Assembly: GCA_012961055.1 (NCBI GenBank)
Contig: DUAA01000158.1
Location: 4,648 to 22,006, forward strand
Source of the DNA: Nitrospinaceae bacterium
Lineage (GTDB): Bacteria; Nitrospinota; Nitrospinia; Nitrospinales; VA-1
Reading direction: 5' to 3'
Length of the DNA stretch: 17,359 bases
Positions 7,080-11,148 of the stretch are shown in pieces (position 1 is the stretch's first letter; each line of letters opens with the position of its first letter). The translations under genes were made by a program, and so were the position numbers. The notes beneath the pieces were generated by a model. That model had not been told where the DNA came from, did not search any database, and saw only the letters and a list, made by a program, of their open reading frames with translations.

Positions 7080-9716
7080 ATGACCGGCGAAGAAATTAGA
7101 AATAAGTTTCTGCAATACTTTAAGGATAGAGGGCACACCATCGTCCCAAGTGGACCCCTGGTCCCACAAAATGATCCTACCCTCATGTTTGCCAATGCAG
7201 GAATGGTACAGTTTAAAGGTGTATTCCTGGGCGAAGAGAAAAGAGATTATAACCGTGCCGTGTCAGTGCAAAAATGTGTCCGCGCCGGGGGAAAACACAA
7301 CGATCTAGAAATGGTTGGGCGCACAGCCCGGCATCACACTTTTTTTGAAATGCTTGGCAACTTTTCGTTTGGAGATTATTTCAAAAAAGAGGCCATTCAG
7401 TTTGGCTGGGAATTCTTAACCGATGTGATTGGCCTTCCTAGAGATCGTTTGTATATTTCGGTCTTCGAAGAAGACGATGAAGCTTTTAATTTGTGGACCG
7501 ACGAAATAAAAATGCCGCGAGAGAGGATATACAAGCTGGGAGAAAAAGACAACTTCTGGGCCATGGGTCCCACCGGACCCTGTGGCCCCTGCTCAGAAAT
7601 ATTTATCGACCAAGGTAAATCTGTAGGTTGTAGAAAACCTTCCTGCGAGGTCGGTTGCGATTGTGACCGATTCCTCGAAATCTGGAACCTTGTTTTCATG
7701 CAATACAACCGGGATGAATCCGGCAAACTCACCCCGCTCCCCAACCCCTGTATTGATACAGGCATGGGTTTAGAGAGACTGGCAGCTGTCGTTCAGGGTC
7801 GTACCACCAATTACGATACCGATCTCATGATGTCAATCATCACCGAGGCTGCTCACATCATGAGTAAAGAATATGGCAAACAGAACGACGTGAATGTCTC
7901 ATTACGAGTCCTGACTGACCATGCACGTGCCGCTGTATTTATAATCAATGATGGCGTCATTCCCTCCAACGAAGGCCGGGGTTATGTTCTACGCAAAATC
8001 ATGCGGCGGGGTCTGCGTCACGGAAAACTTCTCGGACAAAAAGGGTCCTTCTTCCATCGAATCACAAACAAGGTTATCGCTGACTTTAAAGATGCATACC
8101 CTGAGTTAAAAAGAAACAAGGACTTTATTCAGAAAGTGATCATCAATGAAGAAGAAAGTTTCATGAGTACCCTGCATTATGGGACGCAGCTCCTAGAACA
8201 AATTTTGGACAAAGTGCGTAAGGAGGGACTCACTGTAATCCCGGGAGAAGAAATATTCAAGCTGTACGATACCTACGGCTTCCCCACAGACCTAGTAGAA
8301 GAAACTGCCAAAGACGCTGGACTAACCCTCGACATGAAGGGATACAACCAAGCCATGAGTGAACAGAAGACCAAAGCCATGGCCTCTTGGAAAGGATCTG
8401 GAGAAAAAGAAGTCTCATCTTTTTTTAAAGAATTCTTGCAGTCCTCTACCACCACTCTTTTTGAAGGTTATGGGGCGACAGAAGGAGAGGGCCGGGTATT
8501 AGCCATTTTGAAAAATAACGTGCCAGTAGACTCTGCCAGCACGGGAGAGGAGATAGAGTTTCTGACTGACAAGACTCCTTTTTATGGAGAATCCGGAGGA
8601 CAGGCTGGAGACTCAGGACAAGCTTTTAATGAAAATATTCAAATGGAACTTTATGATGCAAACAAACCTCTACCGGGTTTGATTGTTCATAAAGCAAAAA
8701 TTATTCAAGGGACCCTTAATAAAGGGGATAATCTAACATTGGTGGTGAACCAACAGATTCGAGGTAACACCGCACTCAATCATTCTGCAACTCACCTGCT
8801 GCACGCCGCACTCAAGGAAGTTCTGGGAGAACACATCAAGCAGGCGGGTTCATTGGTTGCACCCAATCGATTACGATTTGATTACACTCACTTTTCGCCC
8901 TTGACAGACAAAGAAAGAACCCGCATAGAGTCCCGTGTAAATGAAAAAATCCGTGAAAATATTCAGGTATCAACGCGTGAAATGGATATTGATACAGCCC
9001 TAAAAGAAGGCGCAATGGCATTATTTGGGGAAAAATATGGGGAGAAAGTGCGCGTTGTTAACATTCCCGGATTCAGCAAAGAATTATGTGGCGGCACTCA
9101 TGTTACGGCGACCGGAGATATTGGCTTGTTCCACATTATCTCTGAAGGAGGGATCGCATCCGGCGTTCGAAGGATCGAAGCGGTAACCGGTGCAACCGCG
9201 TATGACACCATTCGCGGGGAACAGAAATCTTTATCAGCTATACGCGAACTCTTAAAATCTCCTTCAAACGAGGAGATTGTGAAGTTGAAAAAATTGCTGG
9301 CAAAAAATCGGCAGTTGGAAAAAGAACTTTCCGCTCTAAAAGAAAAAATGGTGAGCAGTAAAGAATCTTCCGATGACGATGATGTGCAAAAACTGGGAGA
9401 GGTTTCGTACCTGATCAAAAAACTAGAAGACATGGATGCCAAAACCCTACGCACTTTTATAGACAATGCTAAGAACCGATTAAAATCTGGAATTGTTGTA
9501 GTCGGCTCTATTACCAATAGCAAAGTTTCTCTGGCAGCCGGTGTAACCAAAGACCTGACAGCCAAATACCATGCCGGGAATATCATCAAGGAAATAGCGG
9601 CAATCGTTGGAGGAAGTGGAGGCGGCAGACCGGATATGGCACAGGCTGGAGGATCCAAAATTGACAAACTTGATGAAGCCCTCAAAAAAGCAGAAGAACT
9701 GATCCGCTCTAACTGA
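7080..9716 (+). CDS. alaS: Alanyl-tRNA synthetase
   Basis: 878 residues, full length. The class II catalytic core at the N-terminus has PQNDPTLMFANAGMVQFKGV (motif 1 region), then QKCVRAGGKHNDLEMVG and RHHTFFEMLGNFSFGDYFK (motif 2), and later DTGMGLERLAAVVQG (motif 3). The editing domain carries the zinc ligands H568 and H572 (HSATHLLHA) and C670/H674 (CGGTHV), so clearance of mischarged Ser/Gly should work. The C-Ala domain ends with GGSGGGRPDMAQAGG. It charges tRNA-Ala and is essential. No clear Shine-Dalgarno precedes ATG 7080, so initiation may rely on coupling with kdsD, whose stop is 28 nt upstream. The frame is unbroken over 2.6 kb, which argues for good base accuracy in the window. 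Confidence 0.98.
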   Translation: MTGEEIRNKFLQYFKDRGHTIVPSGPLVPQNDPTLMFANAGMVQFKGVFLGEEKRDYNRAVSVQKCVRAGGKHNDLEMVGRTARHHTFFEMLGNFSFGDYFKKEAIQFGWEFLTDVIGLPRDRLYISVFEEDDEAFNLWTDEIKMPRERIYKLGEKDNFWAMGPTGPCGPCSEIFIDQGKSVGCRKPSCEVGCDCDRFLEIWNLVFMQYNRDESGKLTPLPNPCIDTGMGLERLAAVVQGRTTNYDTDLMMSIITEAAHIMSKEYGKQNDVNVSLRVLTDHARAAVFIINDGVIPSNEGRGYVLRKIMRRGLRHGKLLGQKGSFFHRITNKVIADFKDAYPELKRNKDFIQKVIINEEESFMSTLHYGTQLLEQILDKVRKEGLTVIPGEEIFKLYDTYGFPTDLVEETAKDAGLTLDMKGYNQAMSEQKTKAMASWKGSGEKEVSSFFKEFLQSSTTTLFEGYGATEGEGRVLAILKNNVPVDSASTGEEIEFLTDKTPFYGESGGQAGDSGQAFNENIQMELYDANKPLPGLIVHKAKIIQGTLNKGDNLTLVVNQQIRGNTALNHSATHLLHAALKEVLGEHIKQAGSLVAPNRLRFDYTHFSPLTDKERTRIESRVNEKIRENIQVSTREMDIDTALKEGAMALFGEKYGEKVRVVNIPGFSKELCGGTHVTATGDIGLFHIISEGGIASGVRRIEAVTGATAYDTIRGEQKSLSAIRELLKSPSNEEIVKLKKLLAKNRQLEKELSALKEKMVSSKESSDDDDVQKLGEVSYLIKKLEDMDAKTLRTFIDNAKNRLKSGIVVVGSITNSKVSLAAGVTKDLTAKYHAGNIIKEIAAIVGGSGGGRPDMAQAGGSKIDKLDEALKKAEELIRSN

Positions 9717-9819
9717 TTTCAGCATTTCAAAGTTCTGTAGAAATGGACGAGTGAATCCTGTATCATTATCTATCCGTCTTTAAGTTAAACCGGTTTGAAT
9801 TTGCAGGAAAGGATTAAAC

Positions 9820-10203
9820 ATGAGCGATATACTGGGTTTGACAGGTAAAACTTCCCCGATCAATCCTATCAGGAAAAAAGAACTCGACGGCAACTGGAAA
9901 ACCATTGCGGCTAAAGCAGTTACTGATGATGAGTTCACAAAGGTCCTGGCAAAAGACCCTCTTAAAGTCCTAAAGGAAAATGGGTTGGTCGCAGCCACTG
10001 GAATCAAAATTATTTTTGATGAAACAAATCAAGAGTACAGCGCAAAAGTCCCAAAGGATGTTTCAGAAGAATTGCTGGAAGAATCCAAGTGGTGGACCTG
10101 GCGATTAAAAATGATCAAAGAATTTGGCCAGGAGTTGGATCGTAAGGTGGGAACCGTAGCAGGGTATGATGAAGGCTGCCAGCCACCCAGAAGTTTAACC
10201 TAA
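9820..10203 (+). CDS. NHLP (nitrile hydratase-like leader peptide) family protein, orphan RiPP precursor candidate
   Basis: 127 residues. The middle part (about 26-90) has the leader pattern of the NHLP family, derived from the nitrile hydratase alpha subunit. WKTIAAKAVTDDEFTKVLAK is followed by DPLKVLKENGL, then TGIKIIFDETNQEYSAKVP and SEELLEES. In known systems such leaders guide modification enzymes and a peptidase-containing ABC transporter. The tail after SEELLEE is WWTWRLKMIKEFGQELDRK, ending YDEGCQPPRSLT with a single cysteine and no double-glycine cleavage site. No modifying enzyme or exporter lies in the window. Start ATG 9820 is supported by AGGAAAGGA about 6 nt upstream. The stop is 6 nt before tRNA-Arg. 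Alternatives are a diverged stand-alone nitrile-hydratase-like domain, or a small protein using the fold for another purpose. Confidence 0.72.
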   Translation: MSDILGLTGKTSPINPIRKKELDGNWKTIAAKAVTDDEFTKVLAKDPLKVLKENGLVAATGIKIIFDETNQEYSAKVPKDVSEELLEESKWWTWRLKMIKEFGQELDRKVGTVAGYDEGCQPPRSLT

Positions 10204-10209
10204 ACCAAT

Positions 10210-10286
10210 GCGCCCGTAGCTCAGCTGGATAGAGTGGCGGTTTCCGGAACCGTAGGTCGGAGGTTCGAATCCTCTCGGGCGTACCA
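10210..10286 (+). tRNA. tRNA-Arg (anticodon CCG)
   Basis: A complete 77-nt cloverleaf. The acceptor arm 10210-10216 (GCGCCCG) pairs with 10276-10282. The D arm is TAGCTCAGCTGGATAGAG. The anticodon stem GCGGT/ACCGT encloses the 7-nt loop TTCCGGA with anticodon CCG. The T arm is GGAGG TTCGAAT CCTCT. The discriminator is A10283, and CCA (10284-10286) is encoded. It starts 6 nt after the NHLP gene and is followed by its own terminator. Confidence 0.96.
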
Positions 10287-10295
10287 TAATAAAAC

Positions 10296-10333
10296 AAGGG
10301 GTTAGCTGATAAAAGTCAACCCCTTTATTTTTA
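10296..10333 (+). terminator. Rho-independent terminator after tRNA-Arg
   Basis: An 8-bp perfect stem, AAGGGGTT (10296-10303) with AACCCCTT (10318-10325), has a 14-nt loop and is followed by the T-rich run TATTTTTAT. It lies 9 nt after the tRNA CCA end and would end both tRNA and any NHLP read-through transcript. Confidence 0.85.
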
Positions 10334-10420
10334 TAATTTTCTCTATTTTTACCTAGTTCCCGCCAATCTGCCCTCCCCCAGTCTACTTCCTATTTTACTT
10401 AAGTTAGTTTAAAAAATGAA

Positions 10421-10429
10421 TGCTATAAT
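10421..10429 (+). promoter_or_regulatory. Perfect extended -10 promoter element
   Basis: TGCTATAAT is a consensus extended -10 (TGnTATAAT). No good -35 lies 17 nt upstream, which extended -10 promoters do not need. Transcription would start near 10436 and run into the structured region ending at the terminator 10736-10769. The transcript would be about 335 nt with no long ORF. Confidence 0.55.
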
Positions 10430-10659
10430 CTCTGGAAGTTTTTGAAGAATCTGATGCTACATCTAAAGCTTCGGAATAAATAGCGGATGCAAATGCAGAT
10501 GGCTGATTACCTCAATACATTCGAGTCGAAGCTATCTGTTCACTGTTAGGTTTTGGTAGGGTTTTACTGCATGCAATGCATTAAAAAGTTTGTTGTGCGA
10601 TAGATTTAACAGGGAAATCTATCGCACGAAGACAAATGCCCTGAGAAGGAGGTGATCCC

Positions 10660-10704
10660 ATGATATCTGATAGTACCCGGGGAACTTCCGGAGTAATTTG
10701 TTAA
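10660..10704 (+). CDS. 14-codon leader-peptide-like ORF with an exceptionally strong ribosome binding site
   Basis: ATG 10660-10662 opens a short frame reading MISDSTRGTSGVIC, ending at TAA 10702-10704. Upstream, AAGGAGGTGATCC (10646-10658) is complementary over 13 nt to the universal 3' tail of 16S rRNA (GGATCACCTCCTT). AGGAGG lies 7 nt from the ATG, the optimal spacing. The ORF runs through the 5' arm of the following hairpin and stops inside its inner stem, so a translating ribosome would open that hairpin. The peptide has no obvious run of regulatory codons. Translation is likely from the signal; the function is unknown. Confidence 0.5.
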   Translation: MISDSTRGTSGVIC

Positions 10705-10735
10705 CCACAAGTTAACGGAAGCTCCTGAGTACAGC

Positions 10736-10769
10736 AACGCTCCGCTTGCAAAAGCGGAGCGTTTTTTTT
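10736..10769 (+). terminator. Strong rho-independent terminator
   Basis: A perfect 12-bp GC-rich stem, AACGCTCCGCTT (10736-10747) with AAGCGGAGCGTT (10752-10763), is closed by a GCAA tetraloop. An uninterrupted T8 (10762-10769) runs from the 3' arm. It ends the structured RNA 380 nt before mscS, with no ordinary gene immediately upstream. Confidence 0.92.
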
Positions 10770-11148
10770 AATAATCTTCCCTGAAAAAATTGTTATAGTC
10801 TGTACAATAGATGAGGGGATTATTAAGTGCTGTAAAATCTCCATAGTATTGAGAATAACCATCAAGGTCTGGTGATTTTATTCAAGCAAAACCCCGAGAT
10901 CCTTAGCAAGAGTTGTTCAAAGTATGACGGGATTTTTTTATGCGATTGAAAGCAGTTCTTGTGCCGTCTATCGCAAGCAATAAAGTGGTTTCAATTTGAT
11001 GAAGCGCCCCTGTACCGTGAAGGTTAGGGCCGACCTGCGAAACCGACACGGTCGTTTGTGGGTTTACATTATTTAAAACACGTAAAAGATTTGAGCAATG
11101 AGGAAGTGGTTACCAAAATCCTAGTAGGCAATCGAGGGAAGAAAAATA
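10770..11148. other. Non-coding stretch before the MscS gene, with weak RNA-like elements
   Basis: No ordinary gene is visible. TACAAT (10803-10808) could be a -10 without a good -35. AAACCCCG (10889-10896) can pair with CGGGATTT (10928-10935) except for one mismatch, and T7 follows (10933-10939), giving a weak terminator with a 31-nt loop. TAAAATC (10833-10839) can pair with GATTTTA (10874-10880). A 25-codon ORF at 10999-11076 begins MKRPCTVKVRADL, has normal codon use and lacks a ribosome binding site. The same bases can fold (ACCGTG 11014-11019 with CACGGT 11047-11052, and AGGT 11021-11024 with ACCT 11033-11036). Which reading matters, if either, is unclear. Confidence 0.35.

Follow-up and report, generated by a model that had tools for sequence, protein, structure and literature searches.

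What does an RNA do that packs a pseudoknot, a reading frame of 14 codons and a terminator of its own into ~190 nt? Such an element lies on the forward strand at positions 10595–10769 of the window, that is, of the whole stretch of 17,359 nt analysed here, which comes from a Nitrospinaceae metagenome-assembled genome that is 74% complete. A first-pass annotation had described it as a compact structured RNA with a pseudoknot, a mini-ORF and a terminator, and all of these parts are found where it had placed them. The 5′ part forms a perfect 13-bp hairpin, P1 (arms 10595–10607 and 10615–10627, loop 10608–10614), which is evident in the sequence and supported by covariation. The CAGGG in its loop (10610–10614) is one strand of a pseudoknot, supported by pairing tests and covariation, whose 3′ strand CCCTG (10639–10643) lies 2–3 nt upstream of AAGGAGG. 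The Shine-Dalgarno (SD) sequence recognised earlier forms part of something that the annotation had missed, a 14-nt complement to the whole 16S rRNA 3′ tail (10645–10658). The micro-ORF MISDSTRGTSGVIC (10660–10704) has 14 codons, from an ATG at 10660 to a TAA at 10702–10704, and is marked by its conserved frame and stop column. Hairpin P2 pairs 10680–10690 with 10716–10726, with one A-C mismatch in the window copy, and above it the covarying apical helix P3 (10695–10700 with 10708–10713) holds the stop codon in its loop. An intrinsic terminator, read in the sequence as a stem (10736–10763) and a T run, occupies 10736–10769, and relatives have a GC-rich hairpin with a T run after it in the same position. 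Comparison shows the order of parts to be pseudoknot, tail complement 7 nt before the start, ORF, stop codon in the P2/P3 loop and terminator, and the element looks like a stand-alone gene. In line with a structured RNA, the 183 nt from 10590 to 10772 have a folding energy z-score of −6.3, with none of 200 shuffled sequences equally stable.

The annotation had proposed a covariance search as a check, and this search recovered homologues with compensating base changes in 49 of the 64 genomes of the window's order, which includes major marine nitrite oxidisers. The model was built from 24 copies and used to scan 77 genomes of the phylum; 49 were positive, and elsewhere in the class none of 13 was (kin groups were tallied from the result table). 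Among the genomes with at least 90% completeness and at most 5% contamination, 25 of 31 are positive, or 25 of 28 within the order, the three near-complete exceptions being G007, G023 and G060. A single full-length copy is present in 47 of the 49 positive genomes, and two copies in G009 and G030. A laxer scan of the 28 model-negative genomes gave matches at E≤1 in 10 of them, none of which we count as real (best E 0.0075, 20.4 bits), and a 10-mer scan of 19 model-negative genomes gave, among 30 loci inspected, a single one passing the filter, which resembles coding sequence. A DNA search of 60 relatives returned clear matches in genus and family, many of the 50 matches at E≤1 being noise. By exact pattern, 23 loci were found in named genomes, 21 of them titled Nitrospina, Nitrospinaceae, Nitrospinae or Nitrospinota; the exceptions by label are L058 (Nitrospirae) and L043 ("Alphaproteobacteria"). 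L043 (JAJFIL010000154.1, 1–680, on a 4.3-kb contig) has the RNA in its Nitrospinota form, and since its neighbour gene falls into cluster C10 together with genes beside Nitrospinota copies, the contig is probably misbinned in this Alphaproteobacteria MAG (genome G077). We also considered a phage, plasmid or mobile origin of the Nitrospinota RNA and rejected it: viral contigs gave no match to its exact pattern, and blastn of the L054 copy gave none among phages or plasmids.

Alignment of 50 copies to the model left 48 distinct rows. Over P1, the pseudoknot, P2 and P3 together, 88.9% of 1643 cells are paired, compared to 77.9% after shuffling and 37–54% when the structure was slid, and 23 of the 35 pairs show double-sided changes in the 48 distinct copies (16.8 in shuffles). 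P1, P2 and P3 gain an advantage here, having guided the fit of the alignment; the pseudoknot played no part in that fit. In P1 all 11 pairs changed on both sides in the 48 copies, with 85.6% of cells paired; the corresponding values are 3 of 11 and 96.0% for P2, 5 of 6 and 86.1% for P3, and 4 of 7 and 84.9% for the pseudoknot alone. Loop and partner change together, as in CAGGGG/CCCCTG, CCGGGG/CCCCGG, CCAAGG/CCTTGG and TCAGGGG/CCCCTGA. Among the 47 distinct copies that match GGAGG[TC]GATC, the hairpin loop pairs with the segment preceding the SD in 46, compared to 265 of 940 trials with this segment shuffled; the sole miss is L043, which is truncated at the contig end, and in L019 and L053 the script ranked another upstream hairpin over the expected one. 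Genus g15 (L050, L121) has an extra stretch, apparently a hairpin, between P1 and the pseudoknot partner, with loop and partner kept. Judged from these aligned copies, the RNA is structured and has a covarying pseudoknot, and because homologues occur across the order and all four helices covary, the window RNA is not a product of chance. The annotation had also envisaged two exclusive folds, with CTCCT in the 3′ arm pairing alternatively with the AGGAG of the SD. This pairing is available in the window copy, but by reading it is not conserved as such in relatives, where the arm is also found as CTCCC, CTCCG, TTCCT or CCCCC.

Apart from the covarying hairpins, no invariant stretch is longer than the complement to the 16S rRNA tail. 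No 16S match was obtained in the window's own genome, with a model that also found only 9 of 14 control genomes, and the 3′ tail was therefore taken from two genomes of the same genus (L080, L089). With G-U pairs allowed, the unbroken tail match spans 13–17 nt in 47 of the 48 distinct copies found by the model (9 nt in L121), and copies picked by the core pattern likewise have a long match in 46 of 47 cases. For comparison, 86 ORFs with 180 codons or more, drawn from 24 stretches and with approximate starts (first ATGs), show Watson-Crick tail matches of no more than 7 nt. The RNA:tail duplex is predicted at −24.7 to −30.4 kcal/mol (median and window copy both −25.8), versus a median of −5.0 and a best value of −11.5 kcal/mol for the comparison ORFs. 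The 13-mer AAGGAGGTGATCC was found at 42 places in 41 genomes, its backward-read control at two; 30 of the 42 were inspected, and 23 correspond to the RNA, two to the 16S gene itself and five to other sequence. By these predicted pairings, the tail complement is far longer than initiation needs.

An unusually long tail complement is also known from Bacteroidota rpsU, the nearest experimental parallel. According to PMC9976891, the extended SD of Flavobacterium rpsU makes initiation sensitive to the 16S tail being free or not, and in Flavobacteriales such an SD typically belongs to one gene per genome, where initiation reads the state of the tail. There the gene encodes a protein and pairing lies below −13 kcal/mol with up to 13 bp (PMC9976891), whereas the Nitrospinota RNA carries a micro-ORF and reaches about −25 to −30 kcal/mol, the energies coming from different programs. 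We also considered rpsU as a carrier of an extended SD in Nitrospinota itself and rejected it, as the 12 loci inspected have shorter SDs, the longest match being AAAGGAGGT with 9 nt in L168 and L169.

Is the short ORF real? Its frame is kept in 47 of the 48 copies, L019 being the only exception, with UUG as start codon in 30, AUG in 17 and GUG in one. In 45 of 48 copies the stop codons line up in one column (TAA in 35, TAG in 4, TGA in 6), and the ORF has 14 codons in 39 copies, 15 in seven, and 18 and 19 in one each. Frame +2 closes within two codons in 47 of 48 copies, and frame +1 within six codons in 27 of 48, in eight remaining open to the end of the aligned stretch. On this pattern of conservation the 14-codon ORF is genuine as a reading frame, which bears out the mini-ORF of the first-pass annotation; translation is evidently part of how the RNA works. 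Substitutions were analysed in the 39 ORFs of exactly 14 codons, nine being dropped. Single-step changes in codons 2–7 number 10 synonymous to 21 non-synonymous, versus 6.1 to 23.7 under neutrality (a slight synonymous excess), and those in codons 11–14 number 12 to 22, versus 8.6 to 24.1; outside the central Gly-Ala-Ser (GAS) the ratio is thus near neutral, a value that rests on few changes. G8 and S10 are present in 39 of 39 and A9 in 37 of 39 of these ORFs, and GAS lies in the P2 stem. In the aligned sequences, frame and end point are conserved, and selection on amino acids outside GAS is not detectable.

A further predicted helix, UCC-N-UUGU with ACAA-N-GG(G), contains the start codon, which is usually UUG and usually lies inside this small covarying element. 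Its middle pair is CG in 19 copies, UA in 8, AU in 7, GC in one and UG in one, and is unpaired in 12 of 48. The helix shows 22 cells with double changes versus 7.6 in shuffles, these changes falling on two pairs, no more than the shuffled mean of 2.0. It has 5–8 bp in copies with a UUG start and shortens to 3–5 bp in g6 and the window's genus, where the start codon is AUG or GUG (L019 is an exception to this length); since the helix shrinks there, not every copy would have its start occluded. Nested-fold predictions give a mean unpaired probability of the SD of 0.44 in 29 UUG types and 0.55 in 17 AUG types. These folds leave the SD about half unpaired, so that its exposure stays a proposal.

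Taken together, the long tail complement, the kept frame and stop codon with drifting amino acids, and the stop in an apical loop suggest a structured micro-mRNA that would catch the 30S subunit by its whole 16S tail and be translated over a fixed short track, a reading that we favour tentatively and with somewhat less than even confidence. The pseudoknot would hold the tail complement open and wall it off on the 5′ side, and the complement would dock free 30S subunits, the duplex being worth about −25 kcal/mol. Once the start helix opens, the docked subunit could initiate, and the ribosome would melt P2 and terminate inside P3; a ribosome terminating at a stop codon in the apical loop would indeed open P2. 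Because conservation is seen in frame and stop but not detectably in the amino acids outside GAS, the RNA most likely serves to bind or sense ribosomes, by holding 30S subunits or counting them, and not to supply the peptide.

A strong SD would also be expected of a simple peptide gene with efficient translation, namely a well-translated mRNA that encodes a functional micropeptide of 14 residues (M-S-S/N-x-S-I/T-x-G-A-S-...), which we regard as unlikely. Such a gene would account for the frame (kept in 47 of 48 copies) and the stop position (45 of 48), for the nearly invariant GAS and for the slight synonymous excess in codons 2–7; moreover, in genus g10 the synonymous changes GCT to GCC and TCC to TCT preserve A and S. 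However, the 22 UUG-type ORFs of 14 codons always use TCT for the Ser at codon 2, and 18 of these 22 have AGT at codon 5, with no other Ser codon there. This invariant codon choice points to a constraint at the nucleotide level, and the last four residues of the same 22 ORFs are highly variable. GAS itself overlaps the P2 pairing, and in L119 a change from Ala to Thr preserves the RNA pair.

An ordinary sRNA that base-pairs with mRNA targets, with a dual function or an incidental ORF, as presumed for CC2171 (see below), seems improbable to us as well. It would agree with a stand-alone gene that has its own promoter and terminator: 31 of 46 copies have TTGAC where a −35 element is expected, versus 120 of 2300 shuffles, and 21 of these copies also have a −10-like hexamer (counted without a shuffle control), the window copy's own promoter being indistinct. 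Rfam classes CC2171 as an sRNA, and the P1 loop and the P2 arms are conserved. Yet the longest invariant stretch outside the hairpins is complementary to 16S rRNA and does not look like an obvious target seed, and the stop column, shared by 45 of 48 copies, would not be kept in an incidental ORF.

Leader or riboswitch-type attenuators of a downstream gene resemble the RNA in architecture, with a pseudoknot, a short ORF, a hairpin and a terminator, and leader-peptide attenuators and the downstream-peptide motif combine a structured RNA with a short ORF and a pseudoknot. Within one genus the downstream gene is indeed often identical. In the 47 distinct loci, however, neighbours common within genera differ between genera, several downstream genes are convergent, and no downstream gene is conserved between genera, which sets the Nitrospinota RNA apart from these attenuators. 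By eye, the downstream genes resemble those for an MscS-type channel, a CBS-domain protein, a sensor kinase, an amidase and a DUF1566-like protein. Because neighbours change between genera, the RNA is hardly a cis-regulator; the first-pass annotation had likewise seen no obvious target gene attached. A ligand riboswitch or leader was rejected on the same grounds, and this explanation, largely refuted, has very little left to recommend it. Ligand sensing as such, which the annotation had offered beside translation sensing, finds no support in the data, which speak neither for it nor against it. Upstream, 17 other loci carry a small C0-type ORF (lipoprotein-like by eye), and the window has an ORF named alaS-like by eye and a tRNA 5′ of the RNA (7080–10595). 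Local rearrangement is perhaps the reason for the different upstream genes in this region. Between 9820 and 10203, upstream of the tRNA gene (10210–10283), lies a 127-codon ORF, whose sequence may resemble nitrile-hydratase-like leader peptides.

Sequestration of CsrA through GGA motifs (the ACAGGGA loop and AAGGAGG) is hardly credible. ACAGGGA of the window's genus fits the CsrA consensus, and a search of 21 genomes found CsrA encoded in 16 of them, but the genome of the window, at 74% completeness, yielded none. The loop changes together with its partner and so has no fixed sequence, CCAGGGGA or CCAAGGA standing there in other genera, and by reading there are about two GGA sites outside stems (P1 loop and SD) instead of several conserved ANGGA loops.

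Does the proposed micro-mRNA belong to a known family? Scanned against Rfam at E≤5, the window returned only the tRNA at 10210–10283, with no family for the RNA copy and no tmRNA match. The earlier statement that it matches no family, for which an Rfam scan had been suggested, therefore stands for the window copy; it does not extend to six relatives, which weakly match RF01867 (CC2171, a Caulobacter sRNA) and share its core geometry. All six relatives scanned gave this match (E 2.9e-4 to 0.96), the best score of 35.1 bits lying below the gathering cut-off of 75 and hence below the threshold for CC2171 membership; eight other families in the same scan also stayed below their own cut-offs. The RF01867 alignment rests on ucGAAAGGAGGUGAUCC-N-xUG-UCU. 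In UUG-start genera the core reads GAAAGGAGGUGAUCC-N-xUG-UCU, and in the window copy GAGAAGGAGGTGATCC-C-AUG-AUA-UCU. Few of the CC2171 consensus pairs, between the ORF start and the segment preceding the terminator, line up in two alignments; in the UUG genera the start region pairs locally, unlike the CC2171 consensus. RF01867 matches 6 of 14 control genomes, Bacillus included, at E≤1 (one over the cut-off) and only Caulobacter among them at E≤0.001, and the tail complement alone may give weak RF01867 matches.

In the class to which G077 is assigned, 61 of 289 genomes match RF01867 at E≤0.001, nine of them over the cut-off, with G077's Nitrospinota contig counted among the 61. AAAGGAGGTGATCCNDTGTC occurs once each in 61 of 398 genomes of the corresponding phylum (Pseudomonadota), G077 included, and its backward-read control in none. 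All 30 loci found with RF01867 (L180–L209) have AAAGGAGGTG and, 1 nt beyond the complement, a start codon; 29 of the 30 have TCN as second codon, and the ORF comprises 18–26 codons in the 29 that were scored by script (L180 by reading). A stricter filter retained 53 distinct copies from 59 loci, all with an ORF of 14–31 codons, compared to 21% of 2345 random starts giving 14–33 codons. Spacer and second codon are not independent evidence, because they are favoured by the model or fixed by the pattern; the ORF length is independent. Peptides of both groups start alike (MSSD, MSNH, MSHC), and a named Pseudomonadota example is Methylobacterium bullatum. Among L180–L209 and L216–L245, the Pseudomonadota peptides are of the types MSHCH..., MSSDFVFQ..., MSSE...EQP... 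and VSY.KRCHLA..R. Six IMG/VR contigs (L210–L215) carry a Pseudomonadota-type element, and two Pseudomonadota copies compared by BLAST to plasmids matched 0 and 4 records.

Like the Nitrospinota RNA, CC2171 thus has ucGAAAGGAGGUGAUCC, one base, an xUG start and UCU, followed by a short ORF, 3′ hairpins and a terminator. In contrast, the CC2171-type copies of Pseudomonadota have a short CAACAA-type leader, with neither P1 nor a pseudoknot seen upstream by reading, ORFs of 18–26 rather than 14–19 codons, and a different 3′ structure. As the pseudoknot is unseen in the Pseudomonadota RNAs inspected, it cannot be essential to a shared core. From the sequences, the two groups appear to be of the same design, with homology not proven, and we do not file the Nitrospinota RNA as CC2171. 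The accessible portions of a Mesorhizobium sRNA list and of the Rfam 15 update name no function for CC2171, many subscription papers lying outside this search. The Alphaproteobacterial RNAs of the CC2171 kind probably share the same working core, and the core of the Nitrospinota RNA suggests a job for CC2171: pairing with the 16S tail and translation of a micro-ORF.

A far wider reading, which we consider possible but doubtful, is that these RNAs represent a broad class, unrecognised in the literature searched here and present at least in Nitrospinota and Alphaproteobacteria, that would bind, hold or count 30S subunits by means of a full complement to the 16S tail and a micro-ORF of fixed length, with CC2171 as the only member named in Rfam. 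6S RNA, which binds RNA polymerase, offers an analogy only, as an RNA that mimics the natural binding site of a core machine, which here would be the ribosome; if true, the class would be the translation-side counterpart of 6S RNA. For the window's order, the finding is an RNA carried by 25 of 28 near-complete genomes whose scanned sequences have no Rfam 15 match at family cut-offs. Should it titrate or sense free 30S subunits, this RNA would represent a new kind of global translation control.
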